Assembly: GCF_016862795.1 (NCBI RefSeq) | Contig: NZ_BONQ01000129.1 | Location: 62,001 to 126,000, forward strand | DNA: 64,000 nucleotides | Direction of reading: 5' to 3' | DNA from: Dactylosporangium siamense | Lineage (GTDB): Bacteria > Actinomycetota > Actinomycetes > Mycobacteriales > Micromonosporaceae | Shown here: one piece after another, positions 46,176 to 62,222 of the stretch | How positions within the stretch are numbered: the first letter of the stretch is position 1 | Layout: each line of letters starts with the position of its first letter | The notes under the pieces: model-generated | Told to the model about the DNA's origin: nothing | The model's input: the letters and a program-made list of their open reading frames with translations, nothing else | The model's database searches: none | Program-made: the position numbers and the translations under genes

Positions 46176-46232
46176 GGGCGGTATCGAAGTGGGGGTCGGA
46201 GCGAGGCCCGCCGCAGCCCGGCCATCCTAGGG

Positions 46233-47075
46233 TCACAGGTAGGGCTGGCTGGCGGCCTCGATCGCGGCGAGGCGCTGCCCGGCGGCCGGCCCGAGCCGGT
46301 CGATGAGCCCGGCGACGAGCGCTTCGAGCAGGGCGAGCGACGGCACGAAGCTGTCATACAGCGACGGCGAGTCGACCCGGCTGGGCAGCACCACGTCGGC
46401 GAGGCCGGAGATGGGCGACAGCCACCGGTCGGTGCACAGGATGATCCGCGCGCCCTGCTGGGTGACGGTGCGGGCGAGCTCCAGCGTGGGCTGCTCGTAG
46501 CGGCGGAAGTCGAACAGCACGAACAGGTCCCGGCGCCCGACGTCGACGAGGGCGTCGACCCGCTGCACCGGGCCGGTGGGGAGCATCCGGCTGTTGCCGC
46601 GGATCTGCATGAGGTGCAGGACGAGGTACTCGGCGAGCAGCGAGGAGAACCGGCCGCCGTGCGCGGTGACCCGCAGCTGCTGGTCGGCGATGAGCCGCAC
46701 GGCATGGTCGAGCTCGGCGTCGGGGAGTTCGGCGAGCGTCTCGGCGACGGCAGTCGGCAGCACGGCCGCGGCGCGGGCGAGCGGGCCGTCGGCCGGTTCG
46801 TCGGCGCTGTACGCCGACAGCGGCGAGGTCTCGCGTTCGGCGAGCTCGTCACGCAGGGCGCGTTGGAAGTCGGGGTAGCTGCCGAACCCGAGGCGGGTCA
46901 GGAACCGCAGGACGGTCGGGGCGCTGACCTTGGCCCGTTCGGCGAGGGTGGCGACCGTTTCGAGGCCGGCGGTCGGGTAGGCGGCGAGCAGCACACGGCC
47001 GACCCGGCGCTCGGCTGGGCTGCACTCGCCCAGCCGAGCCCGGATGATGCCCGCGACACCGACGGTCTGCGTCAT
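46233..47075 (-). CDS. RpiR/MurR family transcriptional regulator
   Basis: A 280-residue regulator with an N-terminal HTH_6 domain (ECSPAERRVGRVLLA..., TLAERAKVSAPTVLRFLTRLGFGSYPDFQRAL). The SIS domain (about 125-265; FDFRRYEQPTLELARTVTQQGA) normally binds phosphosugars or other small ligands. The actinobacterial variant with RYEQPT in the SIS domain is often found beside amino-acid or peptide catabolic genes. It lies 20 bp downstream of the first cyanophycinase-like gene on the same strand. It is the best local candidate to bind the TGTAAC-N4-GTTACA dyads at 48532 and 53912. Confidence 0.9.
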   Translation of the reverse strand: MTQTVGVAGIIRARLGECSPAERRVGRVLLAAYPTAGLETVATLAERAKVSAPTVLRFLTRLGFGSYPDFQRALRDELAERETSPLSAYSADEPADGPLARAAAVLPTAVAETLAELPDAELDHAVRLIADQQLRVTAHGGRFSSLLAEYLVLHLMQIRGNSRMLPTGPVQRVDALVDVGRRDLFVLFDFRRYEQPTLELARTVTQQGARIILCTDRWLSPISGLADVVLPSRVDSPSLYDSFVPSLALLEALVAGLIDRLGPAAGQRLAAIEAASQPYL

Positions 47076-47095
47076 GGGACCAGCGTAGACAACAC

Positions 47096-48502
47096 TCAGA
47101 TCGTGATCGTGCACGTGTAGTCGGCGGTGCCGCTGCCGCTGTAGGCCTCGACATCGAGGTACAGCGTCGCGGAGCCGCTGCCGGTGTTGGTGTAGGTGAC
47201 GGATTCGTCGGTGCCGGCGCCGTCGTTGACGGAGCGGGTCAGCGTGCTGCCGCCGCTGTTGAGCAGGTAGATGTCGGCGTCGTAGGCGCTGGGCACGGCG
47301 CAGGCCGCGGTGAGCGTGCGCCCGGCGGCGAGGGTGAGCTTGAAGTAGTCGCGGTCGCCGCTGGTGGCGAGGTCGCCGGTGACGGTCACCGGGACGGTGA
47401 CGGTGTTGGCGGCGCTGCGGCTGTTGTTCGGTTCCGTCTCGGTGACCTGGGACGGGTTGCCGCCTCCGCCGCCACCGCCGCCGCTGCAGTCGGTGACCGG
47501 GGTGCCGGAGTACAGGCTGCCGCTCGGGGTGCCGTTGGTGACGCTCTTGAGGTAGTAGCCGCAGGTGGGGCGGGTCTTGAAGTCGAACGTGCCGCCGGGG
47601 GTGACCCGCCAGATCTTGTAGTCGGAGTAGGTGAGGGACTGCCCGGCGGTGGCCCGCTCGGGGGTGTGGTCGCCGAGCACGATGTAGGCGTCCTGCCCGG
47701 CGAGGGTGGCCAGGCCGTTGCGGTCGATGACGAACGAGCCGCCCTCCTCGATGCCGACGCCCCACGCCTTCCCGGCGGTGGTGCGCCCATCGGCGATGGC
47801 GCGGGCGACGAAGGCCATGGTGCGGCCCATCCGGTCGCGGGTGACGAAGTGCGAGTCGTTGATGGTGTTGAGGTAGTTCGGCCAGCCGAACATGCCGGTG
47901 GTGAAGGTCATGGCGGCGCTGTACGGGTCGGCGAGCGCGGTCGCCGACGTGGCGCTGCCACCGCACGCGTCGTACACGATGTCGCTGTTGATGTGCAGGC
48001 CGGCGCTGCCGCCACCGCTGCCGCCGCCCTTGGCGACCACCGACTCGACGGAGGCCTCCAGCGCGGTGCCCTTCCAGGCCGCGTAGCGGCACTGGTCGCC
48101 GCCGGCGAAGTAGACGAACTCGGCGTTGCGGATGTCGGTGTTGACCTGGCTGTTGTTGCCGTCGGACGCGGCGGTGAGGGTGAGGGTGGTGCAGGAGTTG
48201 ACGCCGGTCAGGCCGATGATGGCATCGCATTCCGGGGTGGTGGAACCAGATCCGGCGATGACGACGACGTCGAGGGTGCCGGTGCCGCCGCGGATCGCGT
48301 TCAGCGCGGTGGTCATCGTGGCCGGCACGACCGCGCCGGAGCCGTTCATCACGAACGACGGGCCGCTCCAGGTGCCGCGGGTGACGTCGCTGGTGCTGCC
48401 CTGCCGGACTCGGGTGACCGATGCGTGTGCGGCGGTGGCGCCGAGGGGGACGAGGGCCGTGGTGGTCAGCAGTGCGGCTGTGCAGAGCCGGGCTAGATGC
48501 AT
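47096..48502 (-). CDS. secreted cyanophycinase-like S51 peptidase with PPC domain
   Basis: A 468-residue exported serine peptidase. The signal peptide ends AHA(S), and ATG 48502 follows GGAGGCGTC. The S51 fold shows FAGGDQCRY (about 132-140), nucleophile S166 in GGGSAGLH, and SHFVTRDRMGR, the equivalent of the DxHFxxRxRxGR segment of cyanophycinases. A glycine linker leads to a C-terminal PPC domain (TEPNNSRSAANTV..., about 370-468), a carrier domain of secreted peptidases. Cyanophycinases release beta-Asp-Arg dipeptides from cyanophycin; the substrate here is inferred. The GGGSAG motif deviates from the usual GTSAG. Confidence 0.82.
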   Translation of the reverse strand: MHLARLCTAALLTTTALVPLGATAAHASVTRVRQGSTSDVTRGTWSGPSFVMNGSGAVVPATMTTALNAIRGGTGTLDVVVIAGSGSTTPECDAIIGLTGVNSCTTLTLTAASDGNNSQVNTDIRNAEFVYFAGGDQCRYAAWKGTALEASVESVVAKGGGSGGGSAGLHINSDIVYDACGGSATSATALADPYSAAMTFTTGMFGWPNYLNTINDSHFVTRDRMGRTMAFVARAIADGRTTAGKAWGVGIEEGGSFVIDRNGLATLAGQDAYIVLGDHTPERATAGQSLTYSDYKIWRVTPGGTFDFKTRPTCGYYLKSVTNGTPSGSLYSGTPVTDCSGGGGGGGGNPSQVTETEPNNSRSAANTVTVPVTVTGDLATSGDRDYFKLTLAAGRTLTAACAVPSAYDADIYLLNSGGSTLTRSVNDGAGTDESVTYTNTGSGSATLYLDVEAYSGSGTADYTCTITI

Positions 48503-48531
48503 GACGCCTCCGGGAGGGTCGAGCGGTGGGG

Positions 48532-48547
48532 TGAAACGTACGTTACA
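48532..48547. promoter_or_regulatory. TGWAAC-N4-GTTACA operator, S51 divergent promoter
   Basis: TGAAAC-GTAC-GTTACA lies 30 bp upstream of the first S51 gene and about 104 bp before the second. It matches the perfect dyad at 53912-53927 except for one base, and both continue with AAGTT after GTTACAN. A further GTTACA half-site is at 48581-48586. This is the probable RpiR site. Confidence 0.65.
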
Positions 48548-48650
48548 TAAGTTCTTCGATTTGTTAAAGATGTGCTTGCTGTTACATCGGCGGTGATCGT
48601 AGGGTAGTGGCGCACGGTCCGCCCTCTCACGGTTCGTCGGAGGAGCAACC

Positions 48651-49877
48651 ATGCCCAGAAAACGCTTGCCGGCCGCGTTGGCCGGCGTCTGCATCGCTCT
48701 CGCGCTCTCGGTGCTGCCGGCGTCAGCGGCGTCCGCCCACCATCCGCAGGATGATGGCGGCAGCCTGGTGCTCGTCGGCGGCGGCCTGTCCGACGACAAC
48801 GCGGCGGTCTACGGCGACATCGTCCGCCTCGCCGGCGGGCCGGGGCGCGCCCGGATCGGGATCGTCACCGCGGCGTCCTCGACGCCGGCCGAGGACCCCG
48901 ACGCCGGTACACCCGACTGCAACAACAGCGTCTGCAACGGTGACTACTACGCGGCGCTGTTCGAGCGGTACGGCGCCCACGCCGAGTGGATCCCGATCGA
49001 CCTCGACCACGTGTCCGCGGCCGACGACCCGTCGGTCGTGGCGCAGGTGCGGGGGCTGACCGGGTTCTTCTTCGGCGGCGGCGACCAGTATCGGTACGTG
49101 ACCACCATGCGGCGGGCCGGCGGCACCGACTCCGCCGTGCTCGCGGCCATCAGAAGCCGGCTGCACGCCGGTGCGGTGGTCGCCGGCACCAGCGCCGGCG
49201 CGCAGATCCAGGCCGGCGCAGACATGCTCACCGGCGGCGAATCGTACGAAGGACTCCGCGACGGCAGCGCCGCGGGCTACTTCGACGACGCCAGCGTGCT
49301 GGGCTACCTGCCGGAGGGCGGCTTCGGCTTCTTCCGGGCCGGTCTGCTCGACACGCACTTCTCCACCCGTGGACGGCAGGGCCGCTCCATCCGGCTCGCC
49401 GCGGACACCCACCACAACCGGGTGTTCGGCCTCGACCAGGACACCGCACTCGAGGTGACCGGCGTGGGCACGCGGCGGGAGGCGATGCGGGTCATCGGCA
49501 CGAGCGGTGTGCACGTGCTCGACCTGCGGGCCGCGAAGGTGGACCGGCGCACCGCTGGATGGGCGATCCGCGACGTGCGGTGGACCCGGCTGACCGCCGG
49601 CGACACCTACGACGCCGGCCGCTGGCGGCCGGCCAGCACCAGACCGCGGTCCCACGGGACCGGGGGATGCCAGGTGGGCCCGTCCGAGGACGTGTTCGGC
49701 GAGGATGTGCTGCCGACGCTCGCCCTCGGGCTGGTCGCCGGGTGCCGGCGCACCTCGGGCCGCACCTACGAGACGGGGCCGGCCTTCACGGTCGAGTTGA
49801 CCAGGGGCCCCGGCTTCGCCGGATTCGGCACCGGTGACGCGGTCACGTTCACCGGCGTCTCGATCCGGATCAGCTGA
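48651..49877 (+). CDS. secreted cyanophycinase-like S51 peptidase
   Basis: A 408-residue exported peptidase. The signal peptide (1-29) ends SAASA, and GGAGGAGCAACC precedes the ATG. The core is closer to canonical cyanophycinase than the divergent paralogue: FFFGGGDQYRYV (about 139-150), GTSAGAQIQ with nucleophile S181, and DTHFSTRGRQGR near 244-255. The C-terminal extension (about 310-408) carries a Cys pair and is not a known module. Two secreted S51 enzymes side by side suggest cleavage of different ends or bonds of the same polymer. It ends in a strong bidirectional terminator before the M20 gene. Confidence 0.87.
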   Translation: MPRKRLPAALAGVCIALALSVLPASAASAHHPQDDGGSLVLVGGGLSDDNAAVYGDIVRLAGGPGRARIGIVTAASSTPAEDPDAGTPDCNNSVCNGDYYAALFERYGAHAEWIPIDLDHVSAADDPSVVAQVRGLTGFFFGGGDQYRYVTTMRRAGGTDSAVLAAIRSRLHAGAVVAGTSAGAQIQAGADMLTGGESYEGLRDGSAAGYFDDASVLGYLPEGGFGFFRAGLLDTHFSTRGRQGRSIRLAADTHHNRVFGLDQDTALEVTGVGTRREAMRVIGTSGVHVLDLRAAKVDRRTAGWAIRDVRWTRLTAGDTYDAGRWRPASTRPRSHGTGGCQVGPSEDVFGEDVLPTLALGLVAGCRRTSGRTYETGPAFTVELTRGPGFAGFGTGDAVTFTGVSIRIS

Positions 49878-49882
49878 AACAG

Positions 49883-49912
49883 CGAAGGGGCCCCGGTTTC
49901 CCGGGGCCCCTT
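49883..49912. terminator. strong bidirectional terminator
   Basis: GAAGGGGCCCCGG-TTTC-CCGGGGCCCCTTC is a perfect 13-bp stem with a four-base loop, between the convergent S51 and M20 genes. Confidence 0.9.
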
Positions 49913-49927
49913 CTCCAGGCCGTGCCG

Positions 49928-51091
49928 CTACATCTCGTCGTGCGCCGCGGCGTCCACCAGGCCCGCGAGCAGCGCCACCCGCTCCGGCACCGACCCCAGG
50001 TCGAGCCACTCGTCGCTGCTGTGGTCGTTGCCACCGACCGGGCCGAGCCCGTCCAGCACCGCGACCCCGGCCGCGGCGAACAGGTTCGCGTCCGCGCAAC
50101 CGCCCGTGGCGGCGTCGCGGACCTCGACACCGATCGCGGCCCCGACCTTGCCGGCCAGGTCCACCAGCCGCTGCGTCGCGGCGGAACGCTCCCACGGCGG
50201 CGTCGGCGCGTGCACCGCCAGCTCCACCGTCACACCGTCCACGAACGACCGGCGACTCAGCGCCTCGACGGCGGCGAGCGCCTCGTCGAACGCGCCGACC
50301 CGATCGGCGCGCAGGTCCACGACGAGCCGGGCCTGGTCGGCCACCACGTTGGCCCGCTGTCCCGCCTGCAGCACACCGACGTTCACCGTCACCGACGGCC
50401 ACCGCCCGTTGAGCTCCTGCAGCGCGATCGTCAGCCGGGCCGCGGCCAGGGCGGCGTTGGCGCCACGCTCCGGCTCGATCCCGGCGTGCGCGGCCCGACC
50501 GCGCAGCACCAGCTCGACATCGGCGACGCCCTTGCGGGCCGAGACCAGATCGCCGTTCTCCCGGGCACATTCCAGGCACAGCGCCACGTCCGCGTCGGCC
50601 GCGAGCCGGCCCAGCAGCGCCCGGCTGCCGATCGAGCCGATCTCCTCGTCCGGCGTCGCCACCAGGATCAGCTCACCGAACCCGGTCCGGCCGAGGTCCA
50701 GCAGCGTCTCCACCGCGCACAGCCCGGCCAGGACGCCGCCCTTGTCGTCGCAGACGCCCGGCCCGGTCGCCCGGGTGCCGTCGATCCGGAACGGCCGGGC
50801 CGCCGCCGTGCCCGCCGCGAAGACGGTGTCCAGGTGCCCCGCGAGCAGGATCCGGCGGGTACCGGCACCCCGGACCCGGGCGACGACCGCATCGCCGAGC
50901 GGGGTCACTGCGGCGTCGTGCACCGGCACGAGGTGCGTCGACAGGCCCGCGTCGGTGCACCAGGCCGCCACCTGCGTCGCCACCTCGCGCAGACCCGCCA
51001 GGTCACGGGAGCCCGAGTCGATGTTCACGAGCCGGCCGAGACGCTCCACATAGGACGGGTAGCGCGCCTCGGCGGCGTCGCGGATGCTCAC
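49928..51091 (-). CDS. M20 family zinc metallopeptidase
   Basis: A 387-residue cytosolic peptidase with no signal peptide. Metal and catalytic residues are in place: GHLDTV (H86, D88), GVCDDKGG (bridging D115), DEE (E149, E150), LECAREN (E174) and the late NDHSSDEW (His). It resembles glutamate carboxypeptidase/ArgE-type exopeptidases that free acidic or basic residues from small peptides. The GTG start overlaps the ABC ATPase stop (GTGA), making it the last gene of the importer operon. The likely job is to split the imported dipeptide, perhaps beta-aspartyl-arginine; this is inference. Confidence 0.87.
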
Positions 51092-51924
51092 AGCACCTTC
51101 GACAGGAACGCGCGGGTGCGTTCGTGCCGGGGGTTGACGAGGACTTCGTCCGGGCTGCCGGACTCCACGACGCGGCCGCCGTCGAGGAACGCGACCGTGT
51201 CGGCGACCTCCCGGGCGAAGCCCATCTCGTGGGTGACCACCAGCATCGTCATGCCGTCGGCGGCGAGACCGCGCATGACCTCCAGGACGTCACCGACGAG
51301 CTCCGGGTCCAGCGCGGACGTCGGCTCGTCGAACAGCATGAGCTTCGGGCGCATCGCCAGGGCACGGGCGATCGCCACCCGCTGCTGCTGCCCGCCGGAC
51401 AGCTGCGCCGGAAACGCGGCGGCCTTGTCGGCCAGCCCGACCCGCTCCAGCAGGGCCAGGGCCCGCTCGCGGACCTCGCCGGCCGGCTCACGCAGCACCC
51501 GCAACGGCGCCTCGGTGATGTTCTGCAGCGCGGTCAGGTGCGGGAACAGGTTGAACCGCTGGAAGACCATGCCGATCTCGCGCCGCCGGGCCGCCACCTC
51601 ACGGGGGCGCAGCTCGAAGAGCCGGTCGCCGCGCTGCACGTAACCGACCAGGGCGCCGTCGACCCGCAGGCTGCCACCGTCGACCGTCTCCAGGTGGTTG
51701 ACGCAGCGCAGGAACGTGGACTTGCCGGAGCCGGACGGGCCGAGCAGGCAGCACACCTCACCCGGCGCGATGCGCAGGTCCACGCCGCACAGCACCTCGT
51801 GACCGCCGTACCGCTTCCGGACACCTTCGGCCGAGACCATCGGCACGCTCACGGCACCACCCTTCGGCACGTTCACCGCACCACCCTTCGGCTCGCTCAC
51901 CGCACCACCCTTCGGCTCGCTCAT
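51088..51924 (-). CDS. polar amino-acid ABC transporter ATP-binding protein
   Basis: A 278-residue ATPase of the GlnQ/HisP type: Walker [22 protein letters not shown]-loop, signature LSGGQQQR, Walker B LMLFDEP, H-loop VVTHEMGF. The annotated ATG at 51924 overlaps the permease stop (ATGA). The first 24 residues are three copies of an octapeptide, (M/V)SEPKGGA twice then VNVPKGGA, and each copy begins with a possible start codon. The conserved domain itself begins at [13 protein letters not shown], so translation might begin at any of several positions. Confidence 0.93.
51853..51924 (-). repeat. 24-bp tandem repeat at the start of the ABC ATPase gene
   Basis: Three 24-bp units (51924-51901, 51900-51877, 51876-51853) plus a partial fourth each begin with ATG or GTG and contain the ribosome-site-like GAAGGGTGG. 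They are in frame and encode SEPKGGAV-type repeats. Confidence 0.9.
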
Positions 51925-52772
51925 CGCAGACCACCTCTCGGTGCGGCGAAGCCACGGCCGAACCGCCGCTCCACGAAGAACTGGGCCACCGACAGCACGC
52001 TGACCAGCGCCAGATACCACAGCGCCGCCACCACCAGCAGCGGGATCACCTTGTAGTTGTTGCCGTACACGCCCTGCACGACCGTCATGAGGTCGTGCCC
52101 GGCGATCACCGACACCAACGCGGTGGACTTGAGCATGGTGATGGTCTCGTTGCCCATCGGCGGGATGATGACCCGCATCGCCTGCGGCAGCACGATGCGG
52201 CGCATCGTCAACGCCGGGCTCATCCCGAGCGCGTGCGCCGCCTCGGTCTGCCCCCGGTCCACCGAGAGGATGCCGCCACGCACGATCTCCGCCGCGTACG
52301 CCATCTCGTTGAGCGACAACGCCAGGATCGCGGCCGTCGTGCCGGACACCACGACGCTCGTCGGCTGGTCGAACAGCGTCCCCACGAACGGCACCGACAG
52401 GGTGATCCGGGGGAACAACGCGCCGAGGAACCCCCAGAAGATGATCTGCACGAGCAGCGGCGTGCCGCGGAAGAACCAGATGAACGCCCAGGCGCCGCCG
52501 CGCAGCACCGGGTTCGCCGACAGCCGCAGCACGGCCAGCACGACCGCGCCGGCGGTGCCGAGCACCATCGCGACCGCGGTCAGCAGCAGCGTCACGCCGA
52601 CGCCGTGCAGCACGTAGTCCTTGAACAGGTATTGGCCGATCGTCGCCGGCTCGAGGTTGGGGCTGTCCAGCAGGGCCCTGAAGAACAGCACGGCGATGAC
52701 GACCAGCACGGCGGCGCCGGCCCATCGGCCGTAGTGACGCACCGGTACGGCACGCACACTGGTGGGATCCAT
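51921..52772 (-). CDS. polar amino-acid ABC transporter permease
   Basis: A 283-residue membrane permease of the His/Glu/Gln/Arg/opine type: five to six helices with the EAA loop [10 protein letters not shown]-like segment (here [24 protein letters not shown]). [13 protein letters not shown] is family typical. It is coupled by ATGA to the ATPase. The gap of 152 bp to the upstream binding-protein gene contains a long hairpin. Confidence 0.93.
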
Positions 52773-52800
52773 GGCGGTGTTCCTTCGTCACTGAAGATGG

Positions 52801-52866
52801 CGCGATCGCCGGGTGCCGGCAGCGGTCCGCCCTCTCAAGCAGACGGTGCGGCACCCAGCGATCGCG
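52801..52866 (-). other. 18-bp intercistronic hairpin between binding protein and permease
   Basis: CGCGATCGCCGGGTGCCG and its complement CGGCACCCAGCGATCGCG pair at 17 of 18 positions with a 30-nt loop. Such hairpins often lower downstream expression or protect the upstream binding-protein mRNA. Three GCGATCAA repeats lie between it and the binding-protein stop (about 52898-52927). Confidence 0.7.
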
Positions 52867-52924
52867 GGTCTCGGGCCGGTCGCGCCGGCGGTCAGACGGC
52901 GATCAAGCAGCGATCAACCAGCGA

Positions 52925-53878
52925 TCAATCAATGGCCTTGTCGACGGTGATCTGCTTGAGCCCGATCGGCTGCTGCTTCCAGTGCTCCAGGATCTTTCCG
53001 TAGGTGCCGTCGTCGACGAGCGACTGCAGCGCCACCTGGTACGCCTCGGCGAGGTCCTTGCGCGACTTGAGGAACCCGAAACCGTTGGGGGAGGCGAGCC
53101 AGCCGTTCGGCGCGGCCGCGTCCTCGATCAGCTCCGCCTTGCCGGTCAGCGACGCCGCGGTCTCCACGAGGTTGACCTTGGTGGCGGCGACCGCGTCGAC
53201 GTTGCCGGCCAGCAGCGCCTGCACCGCCTGCGGGTTCTCCGGGTACTCCTGCACCGCGATCGCGCTGCCGCCGCAGCTGTCCTTGCTGTAGGCCGCCAGG
53301 TGCTTCGCCTGGTTGCTGGCCTTCTGCACCGCGACCTTCTTGCCGCACAGCTCCGCGACGGTCTTCACGCCACCGGGGTTGCCGGCCTTGACCAGGAACC
53401 CGGTGCCCGACGCCGAGTAGTCGACGAACGTGGCGACCTGCTGGCGCTCCTTCTTGTCGGTGATGCCGCCGGCGATCGCGTCGTACTTCGCCGCCTGCAG
53501 GCCCGGCACGAGACCGTCGAACGGCTGCTGGGAGAACTTCGCGGTGATGCCGAGCCGCGCCGAGGCCGCCGTGAACAGGTCGTAGTCCAGGCCCTTGAAC
53601 GCGTCGGTCTTGCCCTCGGCGATGAAGTCGATGAACGGCTGGTAGGGGGCGTTGGTAGCGACCGTCAGGCTGCCCTTGTCGCGGATGTCCTTGGGCAGCT
53701 TCGCGGCGACCTTGGCGTCGGTGCTCACGGTGCCGGCGCCCTCGACGGTCACGCTGACCGTCTTCGGCGTCGCCGAGGCGTCGCTGCCGCTGCCGGATGC
53801 ACCGTCGGATGCGCCGCAGCCGGCGGCCAGGGCCAGGACCGCCATCACCGCCGGAATTGCCAAAAGCCTGATGCGCAT
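52925..53878 (-). CDS. amino-acid ABC transporter substrate-binding lipoprotein
   Basis: A 317-residue binding lipoprotein. ATG 53878 gives a type II signal peptide with lipobox LAAGC (Cys about 21). A Ser/Gly/Asp linker follows, then an SBP_bac_3 domain (about 75-310; LTVATNAPYQPFIDF..., FDGLVPGLQAAKYDAIAGGITDKKER). Ligand-contact residues resemble polar or basic amino-acid binders, but specificity cannot be read reliably. It is the first gene of the importer operon. The dyad at 53912-53927 lies 34 bp upstream and shares its pattern with the S51 promoter. Confidence 0.92.
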   Translation of the reverse strand: MRIRLLAIPAVMAVLALAAGCGASDGASGSGSDASATPKTVSVTVEGAGTVSTDAKVAAKLPKDIRDKGSLTVATNAPYQPFIDFIAEGKTDAFKGLDYDLFTAASARLGITAKFSQQPFDGLVPGLQAAKYDAIAGGITDKKERQQVATFVDYSASGTGFLVKAGNPGGVKTVAELCGKKVAVQKASNQAKHLAAYSKDSCGGSAIAVQEYPENPQAVQALLAGNVDAVAATKVNLVETAASLTGKAELIEDAAAPNGWLASPNGFGFLKSRKDLAEAYQVALQSLVDDGTYGKILEHWKQQPIGLKQITVDKAID

Positions 53879-53911
53879 GTGCTCGTCCTCCCGAAGAGTG
53901 GTCTCCGAGAA

Positions 53912-53927
53912 TGTAACGCCTGTTACA
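53912..53927. promoter_or_regulatory. TGTAAC-N4-GTTACA operator of the importer operon
   Basis: TGTAAC-GCCT-GTTACA is a perfect 16-bp dyad, followed by GAAGTT and by another GTTACA half-site at 53939-53944. The near-identical element at 48532-48547 links the importer to the secreted S51 peptidases. Confidence 0.7.
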
Positions 53928-53990
53928 GAAGTTGTGAAGTTACAGTTTAGTGTACCGACCCGGGTCGCGGGGGCCACAACGTCTGAAACG

Positions 53991-54026
53991 CGCCTGCGGA
54001 GCCCTCGTTGGAGGGCTCCGCAGGCG
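53991..54026 (-). terminator. terminator of the secreted protease gene
   Basis: CGCCTGCGGAGCCCTC-GTTG-GAGGGCTCCGCAGGCG is a perfect 16-bp stem with a four-base loop, 6 bp after the protease stop on the minus strand. It isolates the importer operon promoter. Confidence 0.9.
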
Positions 54027-54032
54027 CCGGGC

Positions 54033-55172
54033 TTACGGGCAGGGGTTCTTCGGCCGCTTCCCGACGGTCAGGTTCACCCCTGAACCGGGCGACACGACGG
54101 TGCCCGGCGCCGGGGACTGCGCCATGACCAGGTTGATCAGCTCGCAGCTGTTGTCGACGGCCAACCCGACGCCGCCGACGTGCAGGCCGAGCGCCGCGAG
54201 GTCATCCTTCGCCTCCGTCACCGACTCGCCACGCAGGTCCGGCACCTTCACCGTGGCCGGGGCACCCTCGCACCAGATGCTCCACCAGCGGTTGCCGTCC
54301 TGCTTGGCACCAGGGAACGAGGTCGTGCCGTACAGCGCGTGCGGTGTGCCGGGCGAGCCGGTCGGGGAAAGGCAGGACCCCCAGCCGGGCACGATCGATG
54401 GGACCGTCTGGGCCAGCCAGGCCAGCTGTGCGTTGGCCAGCTCGGCGAACCCGGCCGCGTCGTCGCACTCGGTGCCGAAGAACGACACGTGGGCGAAGCT
54501 CGCGACGCCGACCTGCACCGGGTGGCCCCGGTCGACGACGAGCGGACCGCCGCTGTCGCCGTTGCAGACCGTGTGCGCGCTGGTGCCGGCACCGATCATC
54601 AGCGGCTCGTTCCAGTGATCGAAGCCCCACCACGGGTCGAACAGGTCGCTCATGTCGCTGTCGCTGCGCAGCGTCGTCTGGGCAAGCAGCAGCTGCGCGT
54701 TCGGCGCCCCGTCGGTGGACGTGACGCCTTTGCCCATGATCGTGGCCGGCGTGTTCGCGAAGTACGCGCCGGCGTCCCAGGGCGCACCGGCCTGGATCGG
54801 CGTGACCGTGCCGGTGGCACCCGGCGCCAGGTAGATCAGTGCGAGGTCGTGGCCGTCGCTGGTGTCGCCGTCGTAGAGCGGGTGCTCGGTGAAGCCGAAC
54901 GCGAGGTTGTCGCCGGCGCCGATCACCACGCGGGCTCCGGAGGAGCCGTGGACGCAGTGCGCGGCGGTGAGGATCACGTCGGCTGCGATCAGGGATCCGC
55001 CGCACTTCGCGGTGCCGTTGTCGTAGAACGCGGTGACCGCACCGAAGTAGGACGGGTAGGCGCCCGGGGCCGGCGGTGCACCGCCGATGACGGCGTATGA
55101 CGGTGCCGAGGTCGCCACCGCCGCGACCAGGCCGAGCGCGACGGCGCCCGAGACTTTCCAGAGGTTTTTCAT
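54033..55172 (-). CDS. secreted trypsin-like serine protease with PASTA domain
   Basis: A 379-residue exported S1 protease. The signal peptide (1-27) is followed directly by the mature-type N-terminus VIGG, so there is almost no propeptide. The triad is H72 in LTAAHC, D109 in GHDLALI and S207 in NGDSGGP. The C-terminal 65 residues form a PASTA domain (VKVPDLRGESVTEAKDDLAALGL ... PAPGTVVSPGSGVNLTVG), which may bind peptidoglycan. The region around 285-310 has a W/C-rich insert (NRWWSIWCEG). It is likely a free extracellular protease, with its own terminator. Confidence 0.92.
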   Translation of the reverse strand: MKNLWKVSGAVALGLVAAVATSAPSYAVIGGAPPAPGAYPSYFGAVTAFYDNGTAKCGGSLIAADVILTAAHCVHGSSGARVVIGAGDNLAFGFTEHPLYDGDTSDGHDLALIYLAPGATGTVTPIQAGAPWDAGAYFANTPATIMGKGVTSTDGAPNAQLLLAQTTLRSDSDMSDLFDPWWGFDHWNEPLMIGAGTSAHTVCNGDSGGPLVVDRGHPVQVGVASFAHVSFFGTECDDAAGFAELANAQLAWLAQTVPSIVPGWGSCLSPTGSPGTPHALYGTTSFPGAKQDGNRWWSIWCEGAPATVKVPDLRGESVTEAKDDLAALGLHVGGVGLAVDNSCELINLVMAQSPAPGTVVSPGSGVNLTVGKRPKNPCP

Positions 55173-61898: not shown

Positions 61899-62222
61899 TC
61901 AACAATTCCCGTGGCGTTGCCCGCCCAGCGGTACGGATGCGCAGGTGGACCACCTGTAGGCGGCTCCTTCGCGACGAAGGAGCACGAGTTCAGCCGACAC
62001 CGTGCACAGGTCAACGGTCGGCAGCTCACGGAGCGGATCTACCTTCGTGATCAGCGGCCCGGCCAGCTCGTTGCTGTTGCAGTACGCGACGCCGATGTGA
62101 GGGCGGAATGCCATCGCGTCGTTGGTCTGACCCGCGGAGGTCGCTGCGATCAGCCGTCGGTGCAGTTCGAGCACGGGTTCCCATGGCGAGACGGTGAGTC
62201 GGACGGCGCCGGGCGAGCCTGC
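61899..62222 (-). pseudogene. 2'-5' RNA ligase (LigT-like) C-terminal relic
   Basis: The minus frame ending at 61899 reads VRLTVSPWEPVLELHRRL, NDAMAFRPHIGVAYCNSN, ELPTVDLCTVSAELVLL, a LigT/phosphoesterase C-terminal half with its second HxT/V-like motif (HIGV). The N-terminal half and first motif are missing. The fragment stops at a 51-bp piece of a metallo-beta-lactamase gene (62224-62274), so a rearrangement removed the rest. The stretch 61761-61898 shows nothing else. Confidence 0.65.

Follow-up and report, generated by a model that had tools for sequence, protein, structure and literature searches.

What would a soil actinomycete gain from two different secreted relatives of cyanophycinase encoded beside a single importer and a cytosolic peptidase? 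The question is raised by a 7.7-kb stretch (46233-53927) of the 64,000-nucleotide window analysed here, which covers positions 62,001 to 126,000 of contig NZ_BONQ01000129.1 of Dactylosporangium siamense (Micromonosporaceae). Open reading frame (ORF) calls and domain profiles place seven genes in it: an S51 enzyme with a C-terminal PPC domain (S51-PPC), a second S51 enzyme (S51b), an RpiR/MurR-type regulator, the solute-binding protein (SBP), permease and ATPase of an ATP-binding cassette (ABC) importer, and an M20 peptidase. The original prediction for this DNA had named the same parts as a system that hydrolyses cyanophycin-like polymers outside the cell and imports the products, and every part is found where it had been placed. 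Cyanophycin is a nitrogen-rich storage polymer, and we consider it fairly probable that the cluster serves to scavenge it, controlled by a single local repressor. In such a system, secreted S51-PPC would hold the insoluble polymer via its PPC domain and, with secreted S51b, would cut the poly-Asp backbone to release beta-Asp-Arg dipeptides; the lipoprotein SBP, permease and ATPase would take these up, and the M20 enzyme would hydrolyse them in the cytosol, giving Asp and Arg, with some relatives adding an aspartate ammonia-lyase that would deaminate the Asp. RpiR would sense a metabolite via its SIS domain and leave its operator dyads, so that both operons would be turned on together.

The genes fall into three transcriptional groupings. 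On the minus strand, the gene for S51-PPC (468 aa, 47096..48502) ends 20 bp before the start of that for the regulator (46233..47075, minus), whose HTH_6 (38.9 bits) and SIS (57.5 bits) domains both score above the Pfam cut-offs, and the two likely form one operon. The gene for S51b (408 aa, 48651..49877, plus strand) is divergent from that for S51-PPC and faces a convergent minus-strand operon that encodes, in order, the family 3 lipoprotein SBP (52925..53878; SBP_bac_3, 88.8 bits), the HEQRo-type permease (51921..52772; BPD_transp_1, 73 bits, with TIGR01726 above its cut-off), the polar amino-acid-type ATPase (51088..51924; ABC_tran, 116 bits, with EhuA/GlnQ-type profiles below their cut-offs) and the M20 peptidase, a putative beta-Asp-Arg dipeptidase of 387 aa read from a GTG start (49928..51091; M20, 104.8 bits, and M20_dimer, 64.4 bits). 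Permease and ATPase genes overlap by 4 bp, as do those of the ATPase and the M20 enzyme. The predicted export of S51-PPC, S51b and SBP was judged by eye from hydrophobic N-terminal stretches; the N-terminus of the M20 protein, likewise by eye, has no export-like sequence.

Do these genes form a functional unit? In a sample of 150 genomes from the family of the host, S51-PPC is present in 16, full-length S51b (E 2e-99 or better) is present in the same 16, and in all of these (15 retrieved regions and the window) the seven genes occur together. Weaker S51b matches (to E 1e-10), a number of them next to cphA1, add 19 genomes for a total of 35. Scanning a collection with S51-PPC yielded 48 loci; of 64 loci in all (L052-L115), 56 actinobacterial ones were counted, leaving out the duplicates L052, L058, L062 and L064 (of the named loci L068, L074, L071 and L073), the lone S51b of L067 and three Nostocales loci (L112-L114), while L075 and L110, both among the 56, come from one strain. 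S51-PPC, having served to find or choose the loci, is necessarily present in 56 of 56; the SBP occurs in 56, the permease in 55, the ATPase in 54 (the raw count of 55 included an unrelated L106 ATPase with 33% identity), the M20 peptidase in 54, an RpiR-family regulator in 53 and S51b in 52. Complete seven-gene sets are found at 51 of the 56 loci, in nine arrangements if extra copies are set aside. Among the incomplete ones, L090 and L109 are truncated by the end of a contig, L081 has no RpiR gene, L106 is without S51b and a proper ATPase and has an M20 fragment, and L089 retains only S51-PPC, SBP and RpiR. The SBP-permease-ATPase-M20 order is constant in all 51 complete loci, whereas the S51 and RpiR genes vary in place and direction, as in the S51b-S51PPC-RpiR-SBP-permease-ATPase-M20 arrangement of Micromonospora or that of Streptomyces, where S51PPC is divergent from SBP-permease-ATPase-M20-S51b. 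This linkage, persisting through rearrangement, points to a common function of the seven genes, and the S51-RpiR-ABC-M20 neighborhood is conserved in actinomycetes. The nearest named locus is that of Dactylosporangium aurantiacum (86% identity in S51-PPC). Across an evenly drawn sample of the phylum, S51-PPC relatives were found in two of 396 genomes, one being the host itself, and no such cluster was apparent by eye in the open frames around the other, a distant relative.

The two parts are further tied by a common dyad, TGTAAC-N4-GTTACA, which, as had been proposed, precedes both: it occurs exactly at 53912..53927 (TGTAACGCCTGTTACA; operator dyad 2), ahead of the importer operon, and with one mismatch at 48532..48547 (operator dyad 1), in the divergent promoter region of S51-PPC and S51b. 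A degenerate copy with 3 mismatches (48571..48586) lies 39 bp from dyad 1, and dyad pairs with this 39-bp spacing recur in Micromonospora loci (e.g. L069, L070, L074). Over the 56 loci, 39 dyads with at most one mismatch lie within the promoter windows of S51-PPC and SBP, which total 23.9 kb, as against one in 1118 kb elsewhere. The host genome (12.7 Mb, 98.84% complete) has three dyads at this stringency, two of them in the cluster, including the sole exact one; since a control pattern, the dyad read backwards, also finds two places, the genome count is near chance and it is the positions that carry the signal. A promoter search of 46180-54100 returned a single sigma-70-like site, TTCACA-17-TACATT (53910..53938, minus), at the head of the importer operon, where shuffled sequences average 0.1. 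Dyad 2 extends over the greater part of the spacer of this promoter and into its second hexamer by four bases, an overlap that fits repression by the co-encoded RpiR. RpiR is the presumed binder of the dyads, and the direction and ligand of the regulation are presumed likewise. The third near-perfect dyad of the genome (C23:11-26, L125), which may reflect chance or another regulator, is found where a contig ends, some 50 bp ahead of an NADH-dehydrogenase-like gene.

The separate, divergent or convergent transcription units of the window might suggest that the genes are neighbors by chance, or that the importer operon is the sole unit. Against this stand the nine arrangements, the restriction of the S51 pair to the same 16 of 150 genomes and the dyads at both promoter regions, which render such a view highly improbable; chance clustering was accordingly rejected on linkage, S51-pair co-occurrence and dyad positions.

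What, then, might the secreted enzymes cut? The claim that S51 and PPC domains are joined in one protein is borne out by the modelled fold, but not by Pfam scores, which stay under the cut-offs for both S51 (14.7 bits, cut-off 23.9) and PPC (24.7 bits, cut-off 25.9). The predicted S51-PPC model (mean predicted local distance difference test score, pLDDT, 80.6) matches cyanophycinase 3en0 with Z 21.6 over 249 residues, ahead of the other S51 entries 6nqc (Z 17.6) and dipeptidase E (Z 15.2), at 16-21% structural-alignment identity to solved cyanophycinases. That of S51b (mean pLDDT 82.6) reaches Z 28.5 over 257 residues to 3en0, with 6nqc at Z 20.3 and dipeptidase E at Z 18.4, so that the proposed comparison with cyanophycinase structures comes out alike for both enzymes. 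The C-terminal domain of S51-PPC gives Z 16.5 to a collagenase PPC-type binding domain (5iku); such a domain would suit a granule-binding exoenzyme and, going by the model, may serve to bind the polymer. PMC3235067 lists the catalytic residues of CphB and CphE along with the substrate residues common to both, and window S51-PPC has all eight of them: Q137, S166, D216, H218, R222, R224, R227 and E253 are the equivalents of CphB Gln101, Ser132, Asp172, His174, Arg178, Arg180, Arg183 and Glu201. Its Ser-His-Glu triad (S166, H218, E253) is intact, and in alignments drawn from part of the loci (28 S51-PPC rows and 24 S51b rows) the first seven residues are invariant in 28 of 28 S51-PPC proteins and E253 is found in 26. 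The position of CphB Gln173, replaced by Thr in CphE according to the same paper, is Ser in window S51-PPC and Ser or Thr among the aligned ones. Gln101, Asp172, Arg178, Arg180 and Arg183 are carried by both S51 proteins of the window.

The importer belongs to the polar amino-acid type (PAAT), with its SBP_bac_3 SBP, HEQRo permease and ABC ATPase all matched. The best NCBIfam model of the SBP is for Lys/Arg/Orn binding, below its cut-off, and its solved-structure relatives include opine-binding proteins (nopaline, 4.5e-13; octopine, 2.1e-8); members of the family are thus able to bind conjugates of arginine with an acid. The imported solute would be beta-Asp-Arg. A full-length aspartate ammonia-lyase is encoded beyond S51-PPC in 13 of the 64 loci, all from Streptomyces, with fragments in two more; that of L075 scores 666.4 against PRK12273 (cut-off 510) and 595.2 against the aspA equivalog (cut-off 681.2). 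This linked gene suggests Asp as a product. The N-terminus of the window ATPase (~51841-51924) shows a short tandem repeat of three PKGGAV-like copies and a remnant, and thus its true start may lie further in.

Which enzyme might split the dipeptide once it is inside? Both catalytic and dimerisation domains of the M20 family are detected in the cluster peptidase, whose nearest solved structure, over nearly the whole length, is carboxypeptidase G2 (CPG2; E 8.9e-50); poly(aspartic acid) hydrolase 7ljh (E 7.7e-12) is also in the list. Lys208 and Arg324 of CPG2, which we take to be its glutamate-binding residues, are replaced by Leu and Thr in the aligned window protein, and a role as glutamate carboxypeptidase was rejected on the ground that these presumed contacts are not retained. 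The protein scores 297.2 against PRK06133, under the cut-off of 349, and the cluster M20 proteins have nearly invariant ECAR(E/D)NGD and GPVGGxDH stretches, the former being, like the changed glutamate contacts, a point of difference from CPG2. Judging by its gene position, by the missing export signal and by the requirement of the pathway for such a reaction, this enzyme would be the one to split beta-Asp-Arg.

The absence of an isoaspartyl dipeptidase from the window had led to the suggestion that the M20 enzyme replaces it. This absence extends to the whole host genome, where neither an IadA above the cut-off (there is one 23-bit match elsewhere) nor an IaaA was found. The host also has a complete cphB-cphA1 pair on another contig (C21:9323-12815, L120; cphA1 at 1047 bits, cut-off 850) and probably makes and uses its own cyanophycin in the cytosol; in the 20-kb stretch around this pair, no known dipeptidase was seen by eye among the called genes. 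Across the family sample, with thresholds of E 1e-40 for IadA and E 1e-10 for IaaA, cphA1 occurs in 28 of 150 genomes, none of which has an IadA or IaaA match; in total there are one sub-cut-off IadA match and three IaaA matches, and 146 of 150 genomes have neither. The result for the 28 cphA1 genomes differs from a statement in one part of PMC10206079 that all 35 cphA1 Actinomycetota genomes examined there have IadA or IaaA. The AstE/AspA-type model PF04952, used for CphZ-type (M14) enzymes, matched 0 of 150 genomes, the model being of 76 positions only and detecting 1 of 14 controls. Of the 16 genomes with the cluster, 3 have cphA1 and 13 do not, so that the majority of hosts seem to scavenge the polymer and not to make it. 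Conversely, 25 family genomes with cphA1 are without the S51 pair and without an IadA or IaaA match; thus, the cluster M20 enzyme is not a general answer for stored cyanophycin. A tentative proposal, in which we place slightly less than even confidence, takes the M20 enzyme for a beta-Asp-Arg dipeptidase of a new and unrelated kind, standing in for IadA, IaaA and CphZ in a dedicated pathway of secretion, import and hydrolysis by which filamentous actinomycetes would use cyanophycin; the S51 enzymes would act as a pair, one holding the granule and the other finishing the chains. If so, cphBA hosts such as D. siamense could recycle polymer freed by lysed mycelium.

Several observations weigh against cyanophycin scavenging by this cluster. 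Both S51 proteins fall below the TIGR02069 equivalog cut-off of 126.6 bits (S51b 95.0, S51-PPC 57.3), for which the host CphB, at 249.8 bits, served as positive control, although by profile both are still nearer to cyanophycinase than to PepE, against which S51b scores 15.7 bits and S51-PPC gives no match. A tree of 39 S51 proteins separates CphB (support 94/79), S51-PPC (100/100) and S51b (66/22), so that both cluster enzymes lie outside the CphB group, which argues against their full membership among the cyanophycinases. Two further S51 proteins of the host, PepE-like by our own label and not by profile, group with S51b through a branch of 4.4, flagged by the program as a possible artefact; in view of this branch and the weak S51b support, the tree was not used to place S51b, whose position it leaves unsettled. 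On account of the sub-cut-off scores and tree position we use the label "cyanophycinase-like" for both enzymes, a description that the original prediction had also used. In the window S51b, S181 and H236 are present and the catalytic Glu position is Gln263; among the 24 aligned S51b proteins the Glu201 position is Glu in 21, Pro in 2 and Gln in the window protein, while Arg178 is retained in 5, the window included, and lost in 19. Judged by these residues, S51b may not be a standard cyanophycinase. Besides the enzymes, 11 of the 56 loci have no dyad with up to two mismatches in their promoter windows; no arginine-catabolic gene was seen by eye among the 22 most common neighbor families; the M20 enzyme would be tied to beta-Asp-Arg by its gene position only; and, as IadA and IaaA are mostly lacking in the sampled family (146 of 150 genomes), their absence, though real, is no specific evidence for the suggested replacement by M20.

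The changes in S51b give some room for a division of labor in which S51-PPC depolymerises, S51b is an extracellular isoaspartyl/aspartyl dipeptidase, free Arg or Asp is imported and the M20 enzyme does something else, e.g. N-deacylation. The loss of Arg178 in 19 of 24 S51b proteins and the Gln or Pro in place of Glu in 3 of 24 would agree with it, as would the nearness of the SBP to a Lys/Arg/Orn-binding model, and a Streptomyces S51 dipeptidase E cleaves isoAsp-Leu according to part of PMC11078827. However, all 24 S51b proteins retain the remaining CphB catalytic and substrate positions, among them Gln101, Arg180 and Arg183, and have Thr at the Gln173 position, the predicted fold resembles cyanophycinase (Z 28.5) more closely than it does dipeptidase E (Z 18.4), and both the M20/ATPase overlap and the M20 gene in 54 of 56 loci would be left unexplained; we regard this division as unlikely. 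At the position of Gln263 (window 49437-49439), Gln is also found in L053, outside the alignment, and Glu in the sister D. aurantiacum, so that a loss or change of activity in single species is possible from the sequences.

The sub-cut-off scores of both S51 enzymes could also mean that the system digests other Asp-containing material, such as Asp- or isoAsp-rich peptides or a protein bound by the PPC domain. The likeness of that domain to the collagen-binding domains of collagenases (Z 16.5) and the presence of the poly(aspartic acid) hydrolase 7ljh among the M20 relatives lean the same way. Yet PPC domains are general adhesion modules, the Gln101, Asp172, Arg178, Arg180 and Arg183 positions are invariant in 28 of 28 S51-PPC proteins, and the GGDQ and HFxxRxRxxR stretches are absent, by eye, from the two other host S51 proteins; this substrate change is therefore, in our estimate, distinctly unlikely. 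We retain cyanophycin as the favored substrate of the cluster.

How does such a cluster compare with known systems? PMC10206079 already describes cyanophycin utilization loci that combine transporters with IadA or IaaA, and it also cites Ben Hania et al. 2017 for the grouping of cyanophycinase genes with those of a transporter and a dipeptidase in cphA1-less genomes. In the present loci, too, a transporter is clustered with S51 genes, whose products, however, score under the cyanophycinase cut-off; the loci differ in having an M20 enzyme rather than IadA or IaaA, two different secreted S51 enzymes, an RpiR regulator with its own dyads, an actinobacterial distribution and some cphA1-positive hosts. 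The combination of two S51 enzymes, RpiR control and an M20 enzyme in place of IadA/IaaA is new with respect to these loci. CphE of Pseudomonas, compared by the residues given in part of PMC3235067, is likewise a secreted S51 enzyme with the same substrate residues, and S51b resembles it in the Thr before the catalytic His, whereas S51-PPC adds a PPC domain and the window S51b is without the catalytic Glu. The host CphB, encoded beside CphA1, has the S51 fold and active-site motifs in common with the cluster enzymes, but differs in having no export-like N-terminus (by eye), in its TIGR02069 score and in grouping with other CphB proteins. Sections of PMC10206079 note that dipeptidases are undiscovered in some groups and name M14, S9 and esterase-like candidates; a count of the term "M20" in this paper gives none. 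Among the titles and abstract starts of the listed matches in the PMC literature, with subscription papers outside the scope, there was no account of this cluster or of an M20 cyanophycin dipeptidase, and the passages covered of PMC7318851 and PMC10687191 did not bear on the matter. The cluster is a concrete candidate for cyanophycin feeding by soil actinomycetes and for the dipeptidase reaction in genomes that have neither IadA nor IaaA, and its M20 step most deserves a test. Dipeptide production from the polymer is an application to which both secreted cyanophycinases and beta-Asp-Arg dipeptidases would be relevant.

Some further loci show variations on these genes. The three Nostocales relatives of S51-PPC come without any further cluster gene in those loci; in L112 (9806-10870) and L114 (9902-10891) the relative is without PPC domain, its S51 part is 43-46% identical, and it is flanked by glycosyltransferase-like and cysteine-desulfurase-like genes. 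A second, more distant S51b is encoded in the family genome G133 (L067, 9802-10995), with no other cluster gene in the 20-kb region around it. In the Streptomycetaceae loci L072, L075, L076, L077 and L087, and also in L094, L102, L105, L110 and L115, an extra RpiR and/or SBP gene adjoins the cluster.

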